Of a DNA stretch of 64,000 nt, positions 34,099 through 63,745 are shown one piece after another; position 1 is the first letter of the stretch; each line of letters opens with the position of its first letter. A model generated the notes under the pieces. That model worked only from the letters and a program-made list of their open reading frames with translations. It was not told the origin of the DNA and ran no database searches. This DNA is from Pocillopora verrucosa (lineage: Eukaryota > Cnidaria > Anthozoa > Scleractinia > Pocilloporidae), in NCBI RefSeq assembly GCF_036669915.1, contig NC_089322.1, forward strand, positions 12,588,178 to 12,652,177, read 5' to 3'. Both the position numbers and the translations under genes were made by a program.

Positions 34099-34202
34099 TT
34101 TCGCTACGCGGTAATGATGTTGTTGACTTGCGACCGTTGCGCCCAGTGTAATTTTGGCTTCCTCGACAATAAATGCTCGTACCCAGACCTTAGTGAGAAA
34201 AC
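34099..34202. promoter_or_regulatory. Probable bidirectional promoter
   Basis: Only 104 bp separate the start codons of MANBAL (minus) and the BTB gene (plus), so the promoters and 5' untranslated regions must overlap or extend into the neighbour's first exon. No TATA box is obvious. Confidence 0.55.
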
Positions 34203-34955
34203 ATGGCTGCTGCCAGTCCACCTTCTGGAGCGAGCGACAATACTAACACTCCTTCTAAAATAATTACTTGTAAGCCAGAACTGGATTTTTCCAATCCTTG
34301 GAAAATGAGTGATCTAGTACTTGTTGTCGAAAACAAGCGATTTCATGTTCATCGTACCATTTTATCGATGTGTTCTCCTGTTTTCGACCGGATGCTTTCC
34401 TCGGACTTCAAAGAGAAAACTGCAACTGAAATTCCACTTCCTGGGAAGAAGGCGGACGAAATAGAGGAACTCCTTCGTTCTATTTACCCTTACGTTGAAC
34501 ATCGAATCTGTGAAGAAAACTCCTTTTCTTTGCTAGAGCTTTCATGTGAATACCAGCTGGATAGACTGAAGGCTCGATGTGAAAAGTACTTCATGTATAA
34601 GAGTATGACTAATGACGAAGCACTCGAATTTGTCGTTATGGCACAAAGACATCAGCTTAGTAATGAACTGATTCAAAGGTGTATGCAAAGGTTTGTTTCG
34701 CAGGAAACTAACTGGGAAACTCTTAAGAAAAATGAATTATTTTCCCAGCTAGAGCCACGGTATTCACAGCAACTTGTAGAGGAAAGAGTGAAGTACCTGG
34801 AGAAAAGGCTGACCTCGTGTAAGTCAACTATTGAAGTTTTGAAGATGAAGAAGAGTGACAAAGACGATGATGACCATGGGCCTTGTTCCTATCGAAGACA
34901 TTTTATGATGAGGAAACGGTTCAGAGAGCTTGAACACTCGAGTCCGTTTGACTAA
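34203..34955 (+). CDS. BTB/POZ domain protein
   Basis: Single exon, 250 residues. The BTB domain spans about residues 32-130: SDLVLVVENKRFHVHRTILS, SPVFDRML, then IPLPGKKADEIEELLRSIYP. A helical region with a BACK-like start (LSCEYQLDRLKARCEKYF, NDEALEFVVMAQRH) follows, then a coiled-coil stretch at about 190-220 and an acidic/basic tail. BTB proteins of this shape commonly act as adaptors for Cullin-3 ubiquitin ligases; that role here is inference. No MATH, Kelch or zinc-finger part is present. AATAAA lies at 34974. Divergent from MANBAL. Confidence 0.9.
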   Translation: MAAASPPSGASDNTNTPSKIITCKPELDFSNPWKMSDLVLVVENKRFHVHRTILSMCSPVFDRMLSSDFKEKTATEIPLPGKKADEIEELLRSIYPYVEHRICEENSFSLLELSCEYQLDRLKARCEKYFMYKSMTNDEALEFVVMAQRHQLSNELIQRCMQRFVSQETNWETLKKNELFSQLEPRYSQQLVEERVKYLEKRLTSCKSTIEVLKMKKSDKDDDDHGPCSYRRHFMMRKRFRELEHSSPFD

Positions 34956-37551: not shown

Positions 37552-37624
37552 CTTGCGTTATATCTATAACATCAGCTCCTTAGGTTACAATCTTTACCTT
37601 AAAAGCTTCATACAAGATAACAAC
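37552..37624 (-). promoter_or_regulatory. SECIS element (form 1-like) of SEPHS2
   Basis: On the minus strand: quartet ATGA (37611-37608), 12-nt stem strand AGCTTTTAAGGT (37607-37596), loop AAAGATTGTA with the required AA at its 5' side (37595-37586), second stem strand ACCTAAGGAGCT (37585-37574) and GAT (37573-37571). The stem has 11 of 12 positions paired, counting two G-U pairs, with one A-A mismatch. The quartet gives the expected tandem G.A/A.G and U.U pairs. Below it, TATCT pairs with AGATA, and after one mismatch more pairs follow. This is 468 nt past the stop codon of a gene with an in-frame TGA at the selenocysteine position. Confidence 0.88.
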
Positions 37625-38078
37625 TAGAGCACTTAAATTTTCACACACAAATTAAACACCATGAATTCACTGAAGGAACAAAGAGTCAAGCTAATACTTA
37701 GTACCACAAATATGAACCATTCAAGACAGTGACTTGGGAAATTTGAGCCCAACAAGCATCATGCAATAGGCTCAGCAGAGAAAGCAAAATTACTAATTAC
37801 CATCTTTGTTGCAGATCTCCTGTGATATCTGAAGCATCCATTCTTCAGGATTCACTTTTTTACCCAAAGAACTTCATATATGACATCAAGGATGGCATCT
37901 ATCATAGCAAAAATCAAACTAAACAGTTTGAATTCAATTGAAAATAACAAAACCATACTTCTTTGAATAATAAGACATTACGGCATGGAGTAGGGGTTCT
38001 AACCTTCAAAACAAGTAGTTATCTATCATACATAATTATTAAATTTATTTTTTATTTAGTATAACTGGCGACCAACTC

Positions 38079-41000
38079 CTAAACTTCAATAATCTTAAGA
38101 TCTGTCTCCAACTTGGCCTGTCTGTTTCCATTCACCACTTCACCAATAATCCAGGATGGTTTTCCATCTAAAGCTTCAAGCTCATCACAGTAACTCTGGG
38201 CTTTGTCATGTGGCAGACAAACAAGAAGACCACCTTAGAATCAAAACAAGTAATGTTACAAACCTTAAATAATGTTTTAGATGTCTATATTCAGTCTACA
38301 GGCAGTCCCTCATTTTAAAAGAAAAAAAAATTAGTCTCACTCCTAGGGTTCTATGCAGGCCACTAACATCAACTTTTTTTCACTTTTTTTTCCCTTATGC
38401 AACTTACTTTGAAAAAGAGGAGGAACTGCAAACATTCTAAGGTATATCTTGCCATAATAACCCTACACACCATTGTTATGAGCTGACAAAAGCATTTTTA
38501 TCATTTAACCACCAATGAAATACCAAGTAAGTTTTTGCTCAAAAACTTGATATCTTCACATGCGAAAATAAATGCTATCTTCACACCTGAAAAGATCACT
38601 TTTGCTATGGTTACATATGAAAATCACACCTTTATAAATAAATTAGTATTTCATTGGTGTTAATATAATAAATAGAATATTTTATGGCTGCTTGGAGGTA
38701 CGACATTTTTCATTTTGTGTTGAAAGATATTTCTCTTGTTTTCTTTGCTCACTTGTGAAATATTTTTCAACACTTGAAGAGAAATTTCTTACCTCTGTGC
38801 TGCCATGTAATATCCTCTCTCTATTAAAAAAAACACCAATGAAATACCAAGTGATCCTTTGTCTGAAACATGATATCTTCATACATGAAGATAACATGTT
38901 ATCTTCACATGTTTTGTGATATTTTCAAACATTAAAAGAGAAATTTCGTGTCTCTGTGCCATCATGCAATCTCTATCCATATCGCTGCTACTACTTGAAA
39001 TTCACAAAAAGTAAAAATGAATCAATCGGTTATTGAAAGAAAATGCAACTGCCAATGAGAATACCAATGACAAGCACACTTGGGCTCAATAGGCAACCTA
39101 TATGGCATGTTGTTAGCAAATAATGCCAACACAGTTTAACCCTTTAACTCCCAGATCAAATTGGTAATTCTCCTCACTGTCAACCATACAATTCTTACAA
39201 TGTTAGTGCAGAAAACTTAGCATTGGATCAACTAATTATCCCCAAATTGATATTTTTCTTTATTCTCATCACTTATCTGGTTGCTACTGTATTGATATTG
39301 TAATGGGAAATTCTGTCTTAGTCACTCATGGGAATTAAAGGGTTAAGGTGGTACTGGAAGCTAACTTGGTGAATTTTCAACAATTTTGAGTATAAAACAT
39401 TTCAGGACAGATTTGTTGCAACAACTTGGAAAGATTTTTAGTGTAGTCTGCCAAATACTATTTTATTTCAACAATTTCATCCTCAAAAAATCAAAAAAAG
39501 GTTGAGATCCAATACCCTCTCATTTAGTAAATTTGTGGCAGAGCATGACAGACTGTGCTGCAGACTTTTCCTCATTGTAATTAGTTTTGGTTTGCCAAGT
39601 TTTAGATCAAAAGAATTAAATCTTCCTAGAGATTATGCTGTTGCAATAGCATGACACCATGAAGCTGCACTAATTAATTTGTGAAAAGCAGCAATATCTT
39701 TGGTAGAATTCATCAGAGAACCCATGTTTACTTTCCTTCCTTCAGTCTCCATCTTGTGTAAGCCAGTGATAAATAGCTGCAGCGGCAAAATGCAAAATAG
39801 CGCAATATAGATGGTCATGATTGCCATATTCATCTTTCAATTTTTTTCCTCAAACCAATCACAACACAATAACTATCTGCCCCATCTGTAGCAACAACAC
39901 CTATCCTGTAGTATTAAGAAAACCTTAGCACCTATGCTGTGCATTAGCAAGAGATGGAAAAGCAAAAGTAGAGGTTGCAATAAATGTTCTAGGCCTTCTC
40001 TCACTTAAAGAAATTGATGTTGCTTAGCTGGAAATTGAAAAGAAGGAAAGAGCATCACTAGAAATAACAAAAATACAAAGTGGTGTGGGCATTTAAAAGT
40101 CACAACTTTCAATCTATTAAACATGGTGTGACAAAATAGAATACATGGTTATTCACTCCCTTATGGTTGTGAAACATCTCTAAAATTAGAAATCATTAAG
40201 AAATTTTTAGAATACCAAGGCTAATGAAAACATATTTGTATTTTTGTTGCTTGGGAAATATAAGTGGTCAGCTACCATCAAGCTCTTTCCCATAAAAAAA
40301 AAGTGTGTCATAATTCATTACTAAATGATTACTTATGAAATGGATGTGTCAGAAATGTAAGTTAAAGAAAATACTGGATGAACTGCCAACACAATTAGAC
40401 CAGGATCCCATCTCTATTTTGCTGCCAGATTGTCCTTTGAGGCAAAAGTTATATTGCATGTATTTCTAAGACAGCATGTTTTTTAATTGTCAAATTTTAG
40501 AAATAAACTACATAAAACTTAGCCATAACCTTTACTATATGACAAAATAAAAGCATTCCAAAACAGTAGAGTTAGCCAGTACTGCTTTGATTGGAAAGCT
40601 ACATCATGTTCAGTTATGACTCACCAGAAGTTTCAGCTGAAAATCCATCCAGTAATTTGAAATTAATACCAGAAGCCTTAAAAATCTTCACCATGTTGGC
40701 CAAGATGGGAAGTGTGTGTATTTTAAATGACACCTCGCCTTTCTGGTTTTTTGCCAAATTATTTGCATGTCCAAGAATTCCAAATCCAGTAACATCTGTA
40801 GCACCATGGGCATCATACTTGTGCATCATGCGAGCAGCATTCCGGTTCAACCTAGACATTGATTCCACAGCATTCTCGTAGCTTTTTTCCACTTCTGCAG
40901 GTGTAACAACATCCTTGATCTTGTTCCAAAATTTGGGCTGTAGAGATGTCAAAGTTAGACTTCAAGTTAGCACCTTACATTTAGAGTAAAACTGGTCTCA

Positions 41001-42338
41001 AAAGAGAAAAAGAAAAAAAAAGAAGACATCTTGGAGAGAGTTATCCAGTCTCTCTGATAGCCTGTACAACAAATCAGTTATTTCATCCCAGAAAGTAGTT
41101 TATACACAACAATAAAATTTTCAGTAAATCATTTTTATGAAGGGAGAGACTCACATCAATATCCTCCAACCACTGGTGTGCATTGACAGCAATCTGAGTT
41201 CCAAGAGGTTTAGTAAGGACTAAAACATCACCAGCCACTGCACTTTCTGGCCTTAACATAAAGTAAATCAACAATTTGTTGGTTAATTTATTCTTCAAGG
41301 CTGGTTGTATTTAATTCAGCAAATTTGATAAACTGAAGATGACAGGAAGATGAATTAACCCTTTACACCCTAATATTAGTGTCCATATTCTCATCATTGT
41401 TGTCTTTACATTTCCCATGATACTGACAAGGAGAATCTATTTGACAATCAGGAGCTCATTGAATTAAATTTCCAATCTTAACATTTTAATAGGCCAAAAA
41501 AGACATTTTTCCAAAATCTCTTGACAAAACGTTGCATCCCCCTCTTTGGATCATATTTCAGCGATCTCTCCCTATGGAGAAAAGTTAATAAAATTTTGTA
41601 TTGTATTAGAAACTCATAAACCCAAGACTTGTCTAAATAATTCAGGACTGGCCCAAGAAATGAGATAATCATAGACAAGATGACGAGTAAAAGAGGTACA
41701 TGATGGTTTTATTGTCAAAAGATTATAAATTTGAATAAAATCCCAATTGGACAGTAGGTTTTGCCTCGTTACTCAATATTGATCTTCATGTACCAAACTT
41801 ACATGATAAATTCGTCGTCGGAGACAACACTGGAAGCAACTCCACCAGTAATGAACCATGGATTAATCACTGTCTGTCCTCCGTTCACTGTTGTACCAGC
41901 TTCTAATGCCAGATCATTGAAACCTTTGATCACTAATGGCGTCACAACTTCTCTTTCCTTCAGTGTCATTTGACTGCTTACTCCAAGTAACATTAACATA
42001 TTATCACATTCAGTAACCCCCATAGCGTATAAGTCACTCAACACATTCGCGCAAGCAATCTTTCCTTGCATGTAAGGATCATCCACGAGAGGATAAAAGA
42101 AATCAGTGGTCTGAACAAGACTTATTCCCTTATGCCTTGTGGGAAGAACACAACTGTCCATTCCAACACCGATTTTTCCTTCTCCTCTCTTGTGATCAAG
42201 TCCCTCAAGGAGCTTTAGCAGTTGCTCCTGAGGGACTTTGCATCCTCATCCTTTGAGTTTTGTGAAGTCTAACAGACGAAACGTTTCGGACAACCCGTGA
42301 TCCTGAGGGATAAATCTGGAATATAATCCAAGAGACAT
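38079..42338 (-). CDS. SEPHS2: Selenophosphate synthetase 2, selenocysteine-containing
   Basis: It makes selenophosphate from selenide and ATP, the selenium donor for selenocysteine. Five exons... in fact four introns split it as 42338-41803, 41251-41155, 40937-40625 and 38233-38079, that is four exons and three introns, closing in phase to 366 codons plus stop TAG at 38079. Codon 31 is TGA (42248-42246) in the context KLKG-U-GCKVPQ, where family members have Sec, Cys, Thr or Arg, so it is read as selenocysteine. Other marks: [86 protein letters not shown] and [11 protein letters not shown]. The ATG at 42338 is the first after an in-frame TAG; the N terminus is shorter than in human SEPHS2. 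Confidence 0.95.
38511..38980. mobile_element. Composite small repeat in SEPHS2 intron 3
   Basis: The words ACCAATGAAATACCAAGT (38511 and about 38835) and the inverted GTATTTCATTGGTG (about 38648) recur, as do GATATCTTCA and AGAGAAATTTC. It looks like two or more copies of a non-coding element inserted into each other. Boundaries approximate. Confidence 0.45.
39136..39346. mobile_element. TTAACCC-type MITE, family A copy 3
   Basis: It starts TTAACCCTTTAACTCCCA and ends GGAATTAAAGGGTTAA. It is in opposite orientation to the nicolin-1 intron copies: for example it reads AACTAATTATCC where they read TAATTAGTT. Confidence 0.75.
41355..41480. mobile_element. Partial TTAACCC-type element in SEPHS2 intron 1
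   Basis: It starts TTAACCCTTTACACCCTAA and shares ATATTCTC, CATTTCCCATG and GACAAGGAGAAT with the 17874 element. The right end is lost. Confidence 0.5.
42246..42248 (-). other. SEPHS2: Selenocysteine UGA codon
   Basis: In-frame TGA at codon 31, at the active-site position of the family. The frame stays open and conserved on both sides for the length of the exon, and a SECIS structure lies in the 3' flank. Read as a stop, it would leave a 30-residue peptide. Confidence 0.93.
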
Positions 42339-44516
42339 GGTTTCACAACCTCGTGACACCTTCTATTTAGATTTCCCAAGTTCGAACAAATGGGACGGAG
42401 ATGGAAAACTGCGATCCTTTTGGTCAGCTTAAATAGATCGGTGGTGTAACTACCATGCAGTATACACCGATATCCCCAAGGCCATGATTGCCGGATTTCA
42501 TATCGTGAGGGACTGGGGCGAGTTTGGAGCCTGCTGGACATTTGCAACCAAGAGCAAAATAGCGGTGTACGAAAAAATAGGCGACCAACTAGGCGACCAT
42601 GGATGGATCCTCTTCCTCTAAGAAATAGCATTGGAACTGTGCTGGGGCACTGTGTACTAATAACTGGCGGAATGAAGGACTAGATTTTATACCCTTAGTC
42701 CAATAGGTAAAAGAAACGGTGAACTAAAGGCATCTTTATGAAAGTTCTTATGAATGAAAACATTGACTGACAGAAGCAAGTGATTTGTTCGGCACACTGG
42801 TCCAAAGGACGACGAGAAAGCATTGAAGATAACAAAAAATTGCCTTTTACGGGCATAAATGCCCTAGACGCGCCTCTCCATTGAATAGCGGGCTCTGTGA
42901 TAAATGACACTAGAGATCACAAATTTGAGCCTATGACAATCGAATTCAGAAAAAGGGAAAAGGCGAAAGGGCAATTTCAAATACTTTGAATATATCATTA
43001 TCATAAATAATTATCATGGAGAAATTTGAAATCAAATTATAAAAAAAATGGGAGATTTTTCAAACAAAGGATATCCAGCTTTAGGCGACCGTGCAGGAGC
43101 CAAGTCACCATTAGTCTTGGTGTCATGGGATGGAAATTTCGTCGTTAGAGAAAGAGCATAGAGAAGAGTGCTGACGTCAAGGGAATGAGTTGCACGTAGC
43201 AAGAACTAGTAAGCGAACCATTAAGGTCGTCACACCATTTTAGCTTTTGGTAGCTTTTGCAGCAGAACAGCGGCTACCATTGTCCCTAGATAAAATATTG
43301 GTCCATCTAGCAGATGCTATAATAGCGCAATTTTGCATAATAACACAAAATCTTCTTAGCGATTTTGGTTTCGAAGGTCATTTGGCACTAAAACAATGAA
43401 ACGCAATTTCCCACTGATGTTGGTGGGGAATTCCGACTCAAAATTTTGAATCGCATTGTTTTTAGACGTGAGCAACTTTATCGTTTTGGCAGAACTATTT
43501 CCCCAGATGCAACCTCTCGAAATCTCTATCAGGAGACAGCGGAATCCATCGAGTATTCGCTTTTTTCTTGCAAAATATTGTTTAAATTTTGGAAATATGT
43601 CTAATCCTGGTTTAAATATAACTGTAAACTCAGACGGAATGTGATATAATTTTTGGGAAACTTGATGTTTAAGAAGACTTTATTTTAATGAATCGTATCT
43701 TACTGTGGAAAACATTATATACACTATAAAAGTGGCAAAAATGTTTCATATTTTTCAAAGTTTCATCGCACGGAATAGAATTATTTACAAAATTGAGGTC
43801 CAAATTGCCAGAGAAAATAGTCAGCTCTCAGACCATTTCTAAAAATGGGAAAAACTATTAAGAGATTGGCCTCGGACAGGTGGAAGTGGAAGAAAAAAAG
43901 TAATAATTCAGCAAACAATAAAGGTAAATTCAAACATATATATGTCACACAGGTGAATAGTACTTTTCCCACGCGCTAATGGGCTAGTATGGAAGTGAAT
44001 AACAATACGGCTATTCACCTCGATCAAGAGACTGTCTCTAAGAATTTGGAATGAGAGCAACAGCTTTAGTAAAAAACAATGTTGGAAGCCACAACGAGCG
44101 GTTTATCTAGTAAGTTAGGTTGAATTTACGTTCATCGTTCCTAATCCTTTTTTAGTTTTGTATATATAGAGAGTTTTCTCATTACATAATCATATTATAG
44201 TTCAACAGATGTCTTCATCTTTGAAATGTTTATCAACTTTTTGAAAAATTCGTTCCTGAGTTAGATTTATCAACCAGATGAACACCTTAATTGGTGCACA
44301 CCATTAAGTTTGAATGATGCAAGGCACGTCCATGAACTCCCAACCATCTTGAAATGAGTGAAGTTCATTGAGGATTTTTCTTTTTGATGCTGTCAGGAAG
44401 GTGAGAGTTTACAATGTCCTGGTTGGGCGGTTACTATAAAGACGAAATATATCATGTTGCACTTCCAGATAAACAGTAGCGAAAGTTGAGGAGAAAGCCG
44501 TTTATTCAGCTGCAGA
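42339..44516. other. Intergenic between SEPHS2 and the GPCR
   Basis: It contains the SEPHS2 promoter side and the GPCR promoter side. A 120-codon minus frame at 42269-42631 begins with ATG but runs in another frame over the SEPHS2 start and has no family features. Nothing else recognised. Confidence 0.45.
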
Positions 44517-45464
44517 ATGATCGCGACAACAAATTCACCAGAACGCGGAACGCAGACGATAACTTATCAAAAACTGTTATGCTCACCCACTTTTGCTAGT
44601 GGGTTAAAGCAAATCCCAATTTATTTCTGTGCAGCTAACATTCTCATCTCCCTCGCAGTATTCATTGGGAATTTCCTTATCCTTGTTGCCCTAAACGAGG
44701 AAGGTTCCCTTCATCCACCTTCCAAACACTTGTATCGTTGTCTGGCCGCAGCTGATCTGTTAGTTGGTCTTGTTACTCAGCCTTTCTTTGCTGTTTATCA
44801 CATGTCCTTAGTTTACGGACATTGGAGTCTTTGTCGATGTTCAATCGACGTAGTCTACATCACAAGCTATACATTATGTGGAGTATCATTGTTAACGTTG
44901 ACGGCCATTAGCGTGGACAGACTTCTCGCCCTGTTGTTGGGAATGAGATACAGACAAATCGTAACTTTGAAACGCACGTACATCATTACAGCCATCCTTT
45001 GGATTATATCCGGTGTTGCTGCTGCATTTTACCCTTTAAATCTTCAAATAACCCGTTTGTATGGTATTATAATTGCAGTATTTTGCCCAGTGATCTCTAC
45101 CTATTCATATATTAAGATCTTCTGCGCTCTCAGTCATCGTCAGACTCACATACAAGATCATAGGGGACAACAGCCGAGCCAACCAAATGCACTGAACATG
45201 GAGCGATACAGAAAGGCAGTATACAGTGCCCTATGGGTGCAGTTAGCATTGGTTGCTTGTTATGTACCAAAATTTATAATTACAATTGTGATCATTCAGA
45301 GAAAAACTTATTCTTCACAGATAATAATCGTTGATGGAATAACGTCGCTTGCAGTGTACTTAAACTCAGCCTTGAACCCGTTTATTTACTGCTGGAAGAT
45401 AAGAGAAGTGAGACAAGCAGTAAAGAAGACAATCAGAAGAGCACTTTGTTGTACATGGACTTAG
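44517..45464 (+). CDS. Class A G protein-coupled receptor, orphan
   Basis: Single exon, 315 residues, plasma-membrane receptor. Seven segments: TM1 at about 36-60 with GN, TM2 at 72-96 with LAAADLLVG, Trp103 before TM3, TM3 at 107-135 ending DRLLAL in place of DRY, TM4 at 152-173, TM5 at 181-204, TM6 at 235-260 and TM7 at 272-292 with NPFIY. Cys108 near the TM3 start is present but I see no Cys in the short second outer loop, and the TM6 CWxP motif reads CYVP. This pattern fits the melanocortin/adenosine/cannabinoid-like group and its many cnidarian orphan relatives. The ligand cannot be told. The intact frame and the C-terminal CC, a possible palmitoylation site, suggest a working gene. Confidence 0.9.
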   Translation: MIATTNSPERGTQTITYQKLLCSPTFASGLKQIPIYFCAANILISLAVFIGNFLILVALNEEGSLHPPSKHLYRCLAAADLLVGLVTQPFFAVYHMSLVYGHWSLCRCSIDVVYITSYTLCGVSLLTLTAISVDRLLALLLGMRYRQIVTLKRTYIITAILWIISGVAAAFYPLNLQITRLYGIIIAVFCPVISTYSYIKIFCALSHRQTHIQDHRGQQPSQPNALNMERYRKAVYSALWVQLALVACYVPKFIITIVIIQRKTYSSQIIIVDGITSLAVYLNSALNPFIYCWKIREVRQAVKKTIRRALCCTWT

Positions 45465-53765: not shown

Positions 53766-56700
53766 TCATTCAGCTGGTTCTTCATCGTCATCATCGTCAA
53801 CCTGAGATTTCTCCGTTAGAATCACATACTCTCTGGTACTGAAGCCGAATTTAAGAACATCCTACAAGAAATAAAAATTATATAATTATTAATATACCAC
53901 AAGGAAATATTACATTGCAAATGCCGGCTGGGAGGTGCCTTTGGTGAAAACTGTGACCGCGGTCTTGAAAGTGTTACCCGAGGCCACAGGCGTGACCAAT
54001 AGAGGAACAGGTTCATTTTTGTAAAAAAATTGGAAAATATTGCCTGCCCTAAGAATTAATCAGATTGCAAGTTTAACGTGCCCTCTTTGAAATAAAAGGG
54101 GTGTTACAAACATACGCACGTGAAGTGGAAAGCGGAGACAGAAACATGACGATCCTTGCCCAGTATTTTAAACTAAAAAACGAAGCCCTGAGTTTTGAGA
54201 CTCGGCTTACGTCTCGTCACTTATGGAAGCTCGTCTGCAATTTATTTCTTCGTCCCCGCGTAAATAAAGCCGTTACCTTTTCTTTCAACTCATAGAATCT
54301 TCTGGGCTCAATTTTCTGGTTGTTGAGGAATGTTCCATTTGCAGATTCCAGATCAATGATATATGGTCTACAGTTGAAAAAGAAACAAACAAAAAAAAAA
54401 CAACAAAAACAAAGTAAAAATGACAGAAATTATAATACTACAAACTGACTGCCAGTGCCTCAATAAGGGCCATGGAATTTTGCTCAACAGATTCAAACAA
54501 GTTATAAATTTTACTGAAGTGACGGGAAGGGCCTAGCAGTTGGAAATCAACAGATCTTTGCTAGTCAAGACGAAGAATAAATGAACGCTTTATCATCATC
54601 ATCATTACTGCCATCAGCATTATCTATTTCCTGGGATAAAACCATTAAAAATTTGAGCGTTACACTACAACACACAAAACATCACATAAAACTGTTAGAC
54701 ATAATTATGTGTATGGTCTCATGTGGGTTTAAATTTTTTTCCTATCGTACTTTATGTCCACAGCTTGGGTAATTTTAAAAACTTTCCAAATATCACTTGT
54801 GTTTACACATTGCTATATGCTTGCACATTCAATGCAATTTCCTGTATATAAGCTTGGCATTGAGCTTTGAAGAATTTAAATGGTGGTAACAATAGCTTAC
54901 CACTACACATAGAGTAAAAACCACTTGCCTTTTTTCTAAGTCATAATAAGTATATAGGTAATAACAGGATGTTGAGTGCAATTTGGTGTTAATAAGCACA
55001 AGTGAATTTCTTAAAAACAACAAAATTGCATGAATGCTAATGCACAAATGCAATTTGTAGTCTTTGAAAAATTTGCAAGGTTTTATTACACAAAATTACA
55101 AGAGAAATAATGTTATTACTTGTTTATAATGTACATGAAAAAACATCAAGGAAAGCCAAGGCACTGCCTCAGGCATAATAATAGTGAAGATGAAATTTTG
55201 AAAGTGTGTGCGCACTATTTGTAATTTGCACTCATGTTACAACTTTGCACTTGTGTGCCAATCAGAAGCATGCAATTTTTTCATTTGCATTGTTAAATCT
55301 GTTTCCAGGAACACTCAAAAACCTCTACAGCAATGAAAAACATACTTGACTCTTTTGCCAGAAGTACCATCTGGCTTTTCATAATCTACTAGTCTGTACT
55401 GGAGAACTGCATGCTGTTTTGAACACGATGGGTGATCTACTGCGATATCAACTATCTGAAAGATGTAAATAAAGGAGATAACTAGCCAATCCTGTTTGAT
55501 TGAGCAAAAAGTAAATGTAAAAATATTTAAATGCTTTACATATAACAATGACAAAGAAGTCTCAAAATCTCTTGTAACTTTTGCAATCTTTTGATAATTT
55601 ATTATTTTAGATTTTTGGTTAACAAGTATAATGACAAACTTACATGTCTCTGTCTTCCAATCAAGTAAGCACTTTGTCTGTGAATGTGCATAACAGCTAC
55701 AAAAAAAAAATTTTTATATTTCTCACATCAAAGTAAAATAAATGGAGTAAATCCCTCCCAGGGTAAACAGAGTAAGTTGCCAGGTGATTAACGAGAGAGG
55801 CCCCCAAAAAAACAACCTCCAACATTGTCCTAAATGGAGTACATGGACTGTTCTTGCCAACTAAAATCAGCTGGAACACAGTTGTGAAGACAAGAAATAC
55901 AAAACAGTTGAGACTCCAATAAGGGGTATTCATTACAGGAGCTGGCTTCATTTTGGCTTTCTCAAGGGGTGTTAATTTCAGTGATATGCGATAATCTTAG
56001 GAGGCTAGGACAAAAAATTTTTGAGCCTTCAGGTACGTACACATTGCCTCCTCTCCTTTAAAAGGATAAAGACGCCATCTTGTCCTCGGCTTCCTTGCCT
56101 CTATGGGTTCATTATATTTGATGACCACACCCTTGAAACAACAAGCAATCAATAACTGTGAATATATGAAAATCATATAATTATGTGAACTGCGGTTTAA
56201 GAAATGAACATGAAAGCAATCTTTGCAGTAATGAACTCTACTTAAGCAGTAGTGAAAATAGGGCCTGAAAATAAAAATTCAGGCCTGTACAGAATTGAAC
56301 CCATGACCTTGGAAATACTGGTGCAGTGCTCTACCAACTGAGCTAACAGGCCAACCGGGAGCTGGTCATTATGTGGGTTTGCGATAAACCCCTGAATGTA
56401 TCAATAACTGTGTATATATGAAAATCATAATATGGGAACAAATAATGTTACTGATATCAACCTTTAGACTGTTAACCATTGTTTACTTTAAATAACTTTG
56501 TATCATTTGAATAATTCCAAGAACAGCAATGCATTTCAAGAAGTATATACTAGTCAGTACTCAAAGCTCAAGAATTTACAGAATAGACACTTGCGACTGG
56601 AAATCAGAAACTTGTCATCAAAAAAGAATTTATGTTGGCAGTGGTCAACAATCATTTTGGAAGGTTGGCATACCATCTCAAGATTACCCTTAGAAATCAT

Positions 56701-60260: not shown

Positions 60261-60593
60261 TTTAAACTAATCGTCGCTTCATATAATTAACACAGAGTGT
60301 GATTCGAAGTTTGGAAAGATACTTCAAATAAGACTTCACAGAACTAATGTGTCAACGTAAGCCTTCTCAAGAGGAAGACGAGAAACGGGATAGAACGGTC
60401 AAATGGATTTTCAATAATCTTTCAGGCATGAATTTTCAATAGAAAACCTCTTGTGATGAAATCCTTTATCATTCTTGTGGAACTTTATTCACCTTACATA
60501 CCTCCTCTATATACGTCATGGCTGAATGCCATGAAAACGAAAAATGGCAAAAAACATTCATATTACAGACTTCATGTATGGCTTACGACATGC

Positions 60594-62560
60594 CCTAGTT
60601 AGCCTAGTTTTACCACGAGAAACCCACTTCTGCCCCGAATTAACCATGTTCTACCACATTAACATACATTTACCCTAATTTGGCCATGTTCTACCCCGTT
60701 AACCCACCTCTATCCTAAGTTACCCATGTTCTACCACGTTAACCCCAATCGACCCAAGGTTAGCCATGTTCTATCACATTAATCCCCATCTACCCTAAGT
60801 TAACCATTTTCTACCACGTTAACCCACATCTACCCCAAATTAACCATGTTCTACCCCGATAGCCCCCACCTAAGCTTATTTAGCCAAGTTCGACCTTATT
60901 AACCCCCATCTCCCTTAAGTTAACCATGTTTTACCACATTAACCCACATCTACCCTACGTTAACTATGTTCTACCCCGTGAACCTACATCTACCCTTAGT
61001 GAACATGTTCTACCACGTTAACCCCAATCTACCCCAGGTTAGCCATGTTCTACACTCTTAACCCCCATCTACTTTAAGTAAACCATGTTCTACCACGTTA
61101 ACCCACATCTACCCTAAGTTAGCCATGTTCTACCACGTTGACCCACATCTACCCTAAGTTAGCCATGTTCTACCACGTTAACCCACATCTACCCTAAGTT
61201 AACCATGTTCTACCACGTTAATCCACATCTATCCTTAGTTAACCATGTTCTACCACGTTAATCCACATCTACCCTAAGTTAGCCATGTTCTACCACGTTA
61301 ACCCACATCTACCCTAAGTTAGCCATGTTCTACCACGTTGACCCACATCTACCCTAAGTTAGCCATGTTCTACCACGTTAACCCACATCTACCCTAAGTT
61401 AGCCATGTTCTACCACGTTGACCCACATCTACCCTAAGTTAGCCATGTTCTACCACGTTAACCCACATCTACCCTAAGTTAGCCATTTTCTACCACTTTG
61501 ACCCACATCTACCCTAAGTTAGCCATGTTCTACCATGTTAACCCACATCTACCCTAAGTTAACCATGTTCTACCACATTAACCCACATCTACCCTAAGCT
61601 AGCCATGCTCTACCACGTTAACCCAGATCTACCTTAAGTTAGCCATGTTCGACCTTATTAACCCTCATCTACCTTAAGTTAACCATGTTCTACCACATTA
61701 ACCCCCATCTACCCTAAGTTAGCCCTGTTCTACCCTGTTAACCCCCCTCTACCTTAGGTTAACCATGTTCTATCACGTTAACCCCCATCTACCTTAAGTT
61801 AGCCATGTTCTACCACGTTAACCCATATCTACCCCAAGTAAGCCATGTTCTACCCCGTGAACCCACATCTACCCTTAGTGAACCATGTTCTACCACGTTA
61901 ACCCCAATCTACCCTAGGTTAGCCGTGTTCTACCCTGTTAACCCCCATCTACCTTAAGTAAACCATGTTCTACCACGTTAACCCACATCTACCCTAAGTT
62001 AACCATGTTCGACCTTATTGACCCCCATTTTCCTTAAGTTAACCATGTTTTACCACATTAACCCACATCTACCCTAAGTTAGCCATGTTCTACCAAGTTA
62101 AATCACATCTACCTCAAGATAGCCATGTTCTTCTCCGTTAACCCCCATCCTGACCCTAAGTTAACCATGTTCCACCTCGTTAACCCACATCTACCCCAAT
62201 GTCTAATGTCTACCACGTTAACTCAAATCTAGCCTAAGTTAACCATGTTCTACCCCGTCAGCCCCCATCTACCCTTAGTTAGCCATGTTCTACCACGTTA
62301 ACCCCCAGCTGCTCTAAGTTCATCATGTTCTACCATGTTAACCCCCATCTACCCCCAGTTAGCCGTGTTCTACCACGTTAACTCACATTTACCCTAAGTT
62401 AACCATGTTCTACTACTTTAACCTACATCTACCCTTAGTTAGCCATGTTTTACCACGTTAACCCCCAGTTGCTCTACGGTTCATCATGTTCTACCACGTT
62501 AACCCCCATCTACCCTTAGTTAGCCATGTTCTACCGTGTTAACCGACATCTACCCATATC
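60594..62560. repeat. 40-bp minisatellite, about 49 units
   Basis: The unit is AACCATGTTCTACCACGTTA followed by ACCCACATCTACCCTAAGTT. Units at the centre (61080-61560) are nearly identical; those at the edges are diverged, as expected for arrays grown by unequal exchange. At 61340-61500 an A/G difference (CACGTTA / CACGTTG) alternates, giving an 80-bp higher-order unit. 40 is not a multiple of 3 and no long frame results. Confidence 0.97.
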
Positions 62561-62750
62561 AGCCCGAAGATTCTTCAACGCACAGCGCTTCGTGCGTTTC
62601 TCTAAGTTGTGTCCCATTGAGGACAATTTTCATAGCTATTAGTGGACCGTTTGTTTACCTCTGGGTTGCCTTAGCGAGGATAATATCCCGTTGAGAAAGG
62701 CACACGTGAAAAATTTTAAGTATGAGGATGAATTATAATTTTTCATCCAG

Positions 62751-63745
62751 CTACCAAACAAAACCACCCTTAAGGAGATCGATGCAAGAGATACTGTCAC
62801 AAGCGAAAATCCTCCGCCTGATTTGCCGAAAGAGGAGGAAGTGGCCAACGATGTGATCCAAGTTGACGTGAGGTACTCCCAATCAATTCCGTTAAAGAAG
62901 CTTCATGAAATCATCGTTATTCCTACTGCTGATCTGATCGAAGACAACGGGCTAACATTCGTTCCTGAGGGGCCATTTTGCCTTGTACCTTATGCAACAT
63001 TGCAGGGCTCGAACTTATCATATCTAAGTGATTCTTACAGAATTTTTGTGCTTCCCTCTCTGACGACGTTACAACTAATTCATGATTGCCCAGCTGACTT
63101 TCACACGAAGACTGATACATTGCTTGTTCGCGACCCTTGTTTCAAAGATATTATCTATCAAGGAAGATGTCTGGTGCAACTTCCAGGAGCGAGGAACGAA
63201 GTGGAGATGATCGGACGTATCCTCAATGTTTTCCCCCTCACTGGAGAAGTGGCAACAAACATGAAGTGTTAAAACGAATATCATCAGTAGTATTAGTTCA
63301 CATTGCAGCGCACGGTAAAATGGAGACTGGAGAAGTTATCTTGGCACCAAACACTACAAGAGAAAACCCTCAGCCGCAAGAGAAGGACTATCTACTGACG
63401 ATGAAAGATGTCATAGAGGGGTTGCAGGTACGACTGGTTGTACTAAGCTACTGTCACACTGCTCGTGGGGAGATCAGGGCCGAGGGTGTGGTCGGCATGG
63501 CGCGTGCACTTCTGGGTGCCGGTGCTAGATCTGTTGTAATAACCTTATGGGCGATTGGCGACAAGGGAACCCTAGAGTTCATGTGTTTCTTCTACAATGC
63601 ACTTGCTAATGGCAACAAGGCAAGTGAAACTCTCAATCAGGCCATGAAGTGTATGAGAAAAATTGAAAAGTTTAAGGAGGTGAAGTACTGGGCACCATTT
63701 GTTCTCATTGGTGATGACGTCAACCTGGATTTCAAGGATATTTAG
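62751..63745 (+). pseudogene. TTC28-like CHAT-domain terminal exon with a frameshift
   Basis: An acceptor (TTTTTCATCCAG, 62750) opens a frame reading the CHAT region of the TTC28-like family: GPFCLVPYATLQ, YRIFVLPSLTTLQ, LLVRDPCF, LPGARNEVEMIGRIL. At about 63257-63259 one base is missing: the frame ends in a TAA at 63270, while the -1 frame continues with the expected HEVLKRISSVVLVHIAAHG (CHAT His), LVVLSYCHT (CHAT Cys), GVVGMARALLGAGARSVV and YWAPFVLIGDD to a stop at 63745. CHAT domains are caspase-like folds; in this family they follow TPR repeats, which are not in the window. Either a recent pseudogene or a base-call error in an otherwise intact gene. Confidence 0.85.

Follow-up and report, generated by a model that had tools for sequence, protein, structure and literature searches.

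A selenophosphate synthetase 2 gene of Pocillopora verrucosa with two SECIS-like elements in its 3′ flank

A stretch of 64,000 nucleotides from the coral Pocillopora verrucosa (contig NC_089322.1, positions 12,588,178 to 12,652,177; hereafter the window) carries on its minus strand a gene for a selenophosphate synthetase (SPS). This gene is an animal SPS2, a well-known kind of gene whose product activates selenium and itself uses a stop codon for selenocysteine (Sec). Judged by its sequence, it is an ordinary SPS2 gene with an unusual doubling of the selenocysteine insertion sequence (SECIS) in the predicted 3′ untranslated region (UTR). In the reading that we hold with good confidence, it is the only SPS gene found, of the metazoan Sec-containing kind, with a proximal element (SECIS-A) as the likely main SECIS, a distal element (SECIS-B) as its probable tandem copy and a stem-loop of the Sec redefinition element (SRE) type just past the UGA. 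The coordinates of all features are compiled in Table 1.

Gene structure, in-frame UGA and selenocysteine pathway

Four exons, separated by GT-AG introns, add up to 1101 bases and encode a selenophosphate synthetase of 366 residues. The frame has one internal TGA, at codon 31, followed by 335 further codons that run across three GT-AG introns to a TAG; an in-frame stop is found 9 codons ahead of the ATG, and no other ATG intervenes. Residues 7-366, nearly the full length, aligned with human SEPHS1 (3fd5) with an E-value of 3.9e-140, the selD model TIGR00476 matched the protein with 252.8 bits (cut-off 125 bits) and AIRS and AIRS_C domains were detected. The TGA is found at the active-site position, within KG-x-GCKVPQ, where it faces a Thr of human SEPHS1. 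A complete gene with an in-frame TGA at codon 31 (42248-42246), placed at the SEPHS2 active site, had been proposed from the sequence alone in the original prediction, and both points are borne out by the open frame of four exons ending at 38079 and by the alignment with SEPHS1.

No second SPS gene was found when the genome (G000, 353 Mb, 52 contigs) was searched with the SPS protein; the four protein matches are the four exons of the SPS2 locus. AIRS_C matches of equal score (52.2 bits) are present on two different chromosomes, at L002 (C14:11597195) and L003 (C2:20109598); they are apparently duplicates, and neither locus is listed in the SPS protein search. Intron 3 of SPS2 contains a dispersed, partly palindromic repeat (38480-38930), which resembles a miniature inverted-repeat transposable element and has at least 89 matches in the genome, on both strands.

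Directly after the recoded UGA, a strong hairpin is predicted, at the site of the known SRE; it had been overlooked before. The minimum free energy of -27.1 for the stretch of 20 codons that starts at the TGA was reached in none of 2000 synonymous recodings that kept the codon usage of the gene, and over 20, 24 and 30 codons the numbers were 0, 1 and 1 per 2000. With uniform use of synonymous codons, which weighs against an exceptional stability, the corresponding numbers rose to 4, 3 and 30 per 2000. When the 20-codon windows of the SPS2 coding sequence are ranked by stability, the first nine, with starts at codons 27 to 35, all overlap this hairpin. Thus, the gene has what characterises an SRE, a stable stem-loop a few nucleotides 3′ of a Sec UGA that exceeds codon constraint, and it shares with the SRE the stem-loop form and the place beside the UGA. 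According to PMC4561486, stable stem-loops are present in the UGA-adjacent region of all UGA-containing eukaryotic SPS genes.

The original prediction had further concluded from a Sec-type SPS2 that the organism has a working Sec pathway, and the presence of this pathway in the genome is supported, because two tRNA-Sec genes, SepSecS, domain III of eEFSec, a PSTK-like match and Sec-type GPX and SelW genes were found. The tRNA-Sec genes, on C2 and C4, are identical over 86 nt (77.8 bits); the best local alignment of their loci (L008 and L009, both 1501-1586) ends at the gene and there is no likeness outside. SepSecS (six exon matches) is encoded on C1 and the match to eEFSec domain III on C2 is above the cut-off (E 7.6e-39); the PSTK-like exons on C1 score below the cut-off of their family. 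A TGA was found in the stretch read for seven of eight GPX exon matches, and among the translated GPX genes it occupies the catalytic place in five and is replaced by Cys in one. The SelW gene has its TGA in a GA-U-GY context, and a match to the Rfam model SECIS_1 (34.0 bits) lies 1.4 kb away on the same strand. A search for SelM and Sep15 gave no match, but the controls in that search gave no signal either.

SECIS-like elements in the 3′ flank

A eukaryotic SECIS of form I has a UGAN/NGAN quartet, a helix of about 11 bp, AA at the apical loop and a lower helix. Both elements in the flank of SPS2, SECIS-A and SECIS-B, show these features; they are located 201 and 467 nt past the stop, respectively. 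SECIS-B, with a TGAA/TGAT quartet, is the hairpin of the original prediction: the ATGA at 37611, the GA on the 3′ side and a 12-position stem (11 pairs and one mismatch) were found as claimed, the loop starts with AAA, and only the distance, given as 468 nt, had to be corrected by one. SECIS-A had been overlooked.

A strict descriptor of the core ([AG]TGAN, a stem of 9-13 bp that tolerates one mismatch, a loop that opens with AA, NGAN) matched only two sites on both strands of the whole window, at 37877 and 37611, both on the minus strand and both in the SPS2 flank. In the window and the fetched loci together, it had four hits per 376,878 strand-bases (some loci overlap; L007, L016 and L018-L030 were omitted as repeats of other stretches), including the two in the SPS2 3′ flank. 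When 601-nt flanks were shuffled, at least one strict hit was seen in 33 of 4000 (24 of 3000 in another run) and two hits in none of 4000, which puts the hairpin beyond chance. A fold-based scan of the window gave two hits on the minus strand, SECIS-A and SECIS-B, and five on the plus strand. At a total energy of -16 or lower, four sites were found in the larger set: 37876 (-21.0), 37610 (-16.3), the SelW control (-22.2) and 2836 on the plus strand (-17.5), the last of which is taken as chance. Furthermore, SECIS_1 matched SECIS-A at 37886-37825 over its full length (model 1-64 of 64) with 21.8 bits and E 0.031 in a search of 161 bases.

The controls, all of them predictions, are four elements that emerged from a search downstream of SelW and the five Sec-type GPX genes: SelW, GPXa (L031), GPXb (L032) and GPX4-like (L035). 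SelW and GPXb are sub-threshold Rfam matches (34.0 and 20.0 bits) and GPXa was chosen for its likeness to GPXb, while the GPX4-like element, which has no Rfam match, was picked by its fold and by what we take to be the form of a GPX4 SECIS. Behind the GPX genes of L033 and L034, no trustworthy SECIS candidate was found.

Several results weigh against two genuine SECIS elements. The 21.8 bits of SECIS-A compare with a SECIS_1 gathering score of 35, and SECIS-B was unmatched by this model up to E 10 in stretches of 6001, 201 and 161 bases. A 6-kb search up to E 10 gave neither element, and neither was listed by the whole-genome search with SECIS_1, which scored 150 of 8262 candidates. The strict descriptor passes none of the four controls and the fold-based scan one. 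With loose settings the window had 82 hits (47 minus, 35 plus), 37 of them at -11 or lower; the locus of the Cys-type GPX (L036) also gave four, and such hits are useless as evidence. A scan of the window at Rfam gathering thresholds gave no SECIS, its sole match being one tRNA. However, with SelW at 34.0 bits, GPXb at 20.0 bits and the GPX4-like element unmatched, the model is a poor test in this genome, and since the two descriptors pass so few controls, they are specific rather than sensitive.

SECIS-A looks the better supported element and SECIS-B the weaker of the pair, because SECIS-A has the lower energy and an Rfam match, though below the gathering score. That the hairpin at 37611 is the textbook SECIS of the gene is not supported, since SECIS_1 listed SECIS-A but not SECIS-B. 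The annotation is to be corrected to a full-length protein whose main SECIS is probably another one than that first named.

Likeness of the two elements and the possible role of SECIS-B

SECIS-A and SECIS-B share 52 identities in 80 aligned columns (65%) at a spacing of 266 nt. Their local alignment score was equalled in none of 2000 shuffles and, in another run, in none of 1000 under each of two scoring schemes. The likeness extends about 60 nt upstream of the elements, with ungapped repeats at spacings of 266 nt (SECIS) and 267 nt (a 22-nt repeat), and among the 15 pairs formed by the two elements and the four controls only GPXa and GPXb are more alike. The best reading, rather than a proven one, is that the pair probably arose when a segment of the 3′ UTR was duplicated in tandem. 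This reading is weakened by a third and harshest scoring scheme, under which 36 of 1000 shuffles equalled the score, and by the upstream flanks, which taken alone are only weakly significant, their score being equalled or exceeded in 23 and 49 of 2000 shuffles. Moreover, the SelW and GPX4-like elements, which belong to unrelated genes, were alike with a z-score of 4.8, above 500 of 500 shuffles, compared to 6.7 for SECIS-A and SECIS-B. Therefore, the shared SECIS motif may account for part of the likeness. An origin of the doubled segment from a dispersed repeat was considered and is unsupported, its 461 bases matching only their own place in the genome; old dispersed copies could be missed by this search, since it also failed to report the 65% likeness between the two elements. 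Viral and prokaryote contigs were also scanned and yielded no confirmed relative.

After 28 random substitutions, a number that assigns all divergence to one copy, the strict descriptor was still passed by 34 of 20000 mutants of SECIS-A and 17 of 20000 mutants of SECIS-B; after 14 substitutions the numbers were 830 and 366 of 20000. That few random mutants retain the strict core argues that both cores have been kept. Compensatory changes were counted in the ten pairs of the upper stem: one double and four single changes still pair, one pair is lost in SECIS-B and four are unchanged.

In the favoured mechanism, eEFSec would bring tRNA-Sec to the UGA at codon 31, so that selenocysteine is inserted there, a 3′ UTR SECIS would recruit a SECIS-binding protein and the SRE-type stem-loop just past the UGA would disfavour termination. 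The proximal SECIS-A would be the likely main SECIS; SECIS-B, with its core kept after the presumed tandem duplication of the segment, would probably add to Sec insertion or back it up. It is quite possible, if somewhat short of probable, that only SECIS-A works and that SECIS-B is a remnant in decay or a hairpin formed by chance. The higher energy of SECIS-B (-16.3 vs -21.0), the mismatch in its stem and the missing Rfam match are in line with this, and human SEP15 is a precedent for one nonfunctional SECIS (PMC2874816). There, it is the upstream SECIS that is said to be nonfunctional, whereas here the upstream one looks better. Yet SECIS-B retains ATGA, AA, GA and most stem pairs, as rarely seen in mutants of SECIS-A with an equal number of substitutions (34/20000), an argument that is softened by the 830 of 20000 that keep the core with half as many.

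Two SECIS elements in genes with a single Sec codon are already known (PMC2874816, PMC3473315). Ciona SelW1, Branchiostoma DI_b and human SEP15 combine one Sec codon with two SECIS, as is the case here, and Nematostella Gpx_a is named as a two-SECIS gene in the same papers; these proteins belong to families other than SPS2. SELENOP has two SECIS in one 3′ UTR, on average 334 nt apart in the vertebrates examined (PMC3316567) compared to 266 nt here, but many Sec codons compared to one in this SPS2. With metazoan SPS2/SEPHS2 the gene shares sequence, domains, the UGA in a KG-U-GC context, 3′ SECIS-like elements and the stem-loop after the UGA; no second copy was found, in line with other animals that lack SPS1 (PMC4561486), and one Sps selenoprotein gene is given for Nematostella in a table of PMC3473315. 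What sets it apart is that its 3′ flank holds two SECIS-like elements related to each other. In the titles, the openings of abstracts and the passages covered, no report of two SECIS or a second SECIS with SPS2 was found, and an earlier notice is possible.

Transcript forms and further features of the window

Since two AATAAA precede both SECIS elements, an SPS2 transcript that ends before them, and thus lacks a SECIS, is conceivable from the sequence. SECIS-less SPS2 transcripts, produced through the use of alternative 3′ exons or of alternative poly(A) sites, have been proposed as a root of SPS1 function (PMC4561486), and the gene described here would fit this proposal. A dual function, in which an ordinary amino acid is also inserted at the UGA when the mRNA ends at the proximal poly(A) site and so lacks a SECIS, giving an SPS1-like product, is nevertheless unlikely. 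It would agree with the strong SRE-like hairpin, with the two AATAAA and with the finding of no second SPS gene, and it is put forward as a general hypothesis in PMC4561486. However, at least one AATAAA arose within the first 60 nt in 6.5% and within the first 201 nt in 22% of shuffled flanks (n = 3000; two within the first 60 nt in 0.2%), and the readthrough hexanucleotide GGG-UG[C/U] described in PMC4561486 is unmatched by the GGA-TGC found here. A shade less likely still is a built-in switch, in which early polyadenylation would give a SECIS-less mRNA, stem-loop readthrough and an SPS1-like protein, and the long mRNA with the SECIS pair would give the Sec enzyme; if true, this would be the ancestral, undivided state that preceded the split into SPS1 and SPS2 in other animals. 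Because this animal SPS gene is not duplicated and combines a strong hairpin beside the UGA with early poly(A) signals and two SECIS-like copies, it offers a compact test of the proposal that SPS1 function had its beginning in readthrough without Sec on transcripts lacking a SECIS (PMC4561486), and also of the role of a second SECIS in a gene with one Sec codon.

That only SECIS-B works, as the original prediction implied, and SECIS-A is incidental, is improbable: the TGAA/TGAT quartet of SECIS-B, whose TGAT is the same as in the SelW and GPX4-like controls, and its AAA loop start would suit this, but SECIS-A has the lower energy and is matched by Rfam about as well as a GPX control of the same genome (20.0 bits). 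A pseudogene or an assembly error with a true stop is highly improbable, since nothing beyond the TGA itself speaks for it and the intact frame and splice sites, the Sec context, the hairpin after the UGA, the SECIS-like elements and the lack of another copy speak against it.

Table 1 Features of the SPS2 locus (positions in the window)
Feature	Position	Strand	Description	Basis
SPS2 coding exon 1	41803..42338	-	from the ATG to the gtaagt splice donor; includes the Sec TGA	protein match and own-genome match
In-frame TGA	42246..42248	-	codon 31, putative selenocysteine	opposite Thr of human SEPHS1
SRE-like stem-loop	42198..42238	-	15 bp, one bulge, 10-nt loop; begins 7 nt past the TGA	predicted fold
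SPS2 coding exon 2	41155..41251	-		
SPS2 coding exon 3	40625..40937	-		
SPS2 coding exon 4	38079..38233	-	TAG stop	
Two AATAAA	38044..38056	-	22 and 29 nt past the stop (first bases 38056 and 38049), upstream of both SECIS	
Copy 1 of the probably duplicated 3′ segment	37822..37951	-	contains SECIS-A	
SECIS-A, proximal	37818..37892	-	core ATGA...GGAT, 37877-37836	descriptors and Rfam SECIS_1
Copy 2 of the probably duplicated 3′ segment	37557..37682	-	contains SECIS-B	
SECIS-B, distal	37557..37624	-	core ATGA...TGAT, 37611-37571	descriptors; no Rfam SECIS match
ATTAAA	37482..37487	-	candidate distal poly(A) signal beyond both SECIS, 591 nt past the stop	

Approximately 2 kb from the start of SPS2, an open frame of 324 residues on the plus strand (44490-45461) has a match to rhodopsin-like G protein-coupled receptors (7tm_1). 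A tandem array of 49 copies of a 40-bp unit (60593-62555) is the probable cause of a GC skew of -0.28 in the region 60-64 kb. An Rfam tRNA match of 34.5 bits on the minus strand (56281-56352), which was not called by ARAGORN, is perhaps a tRNA-derived repeat. On the plus strand, the two halves of a CHAT domain (profile positions 3-130 and 131-289) are encoded in two overlapping open frames at 62739-63745, indicating an intron or a frameshift, and a BTB domain is found in an open frame of 252 residues at 34197-34952.

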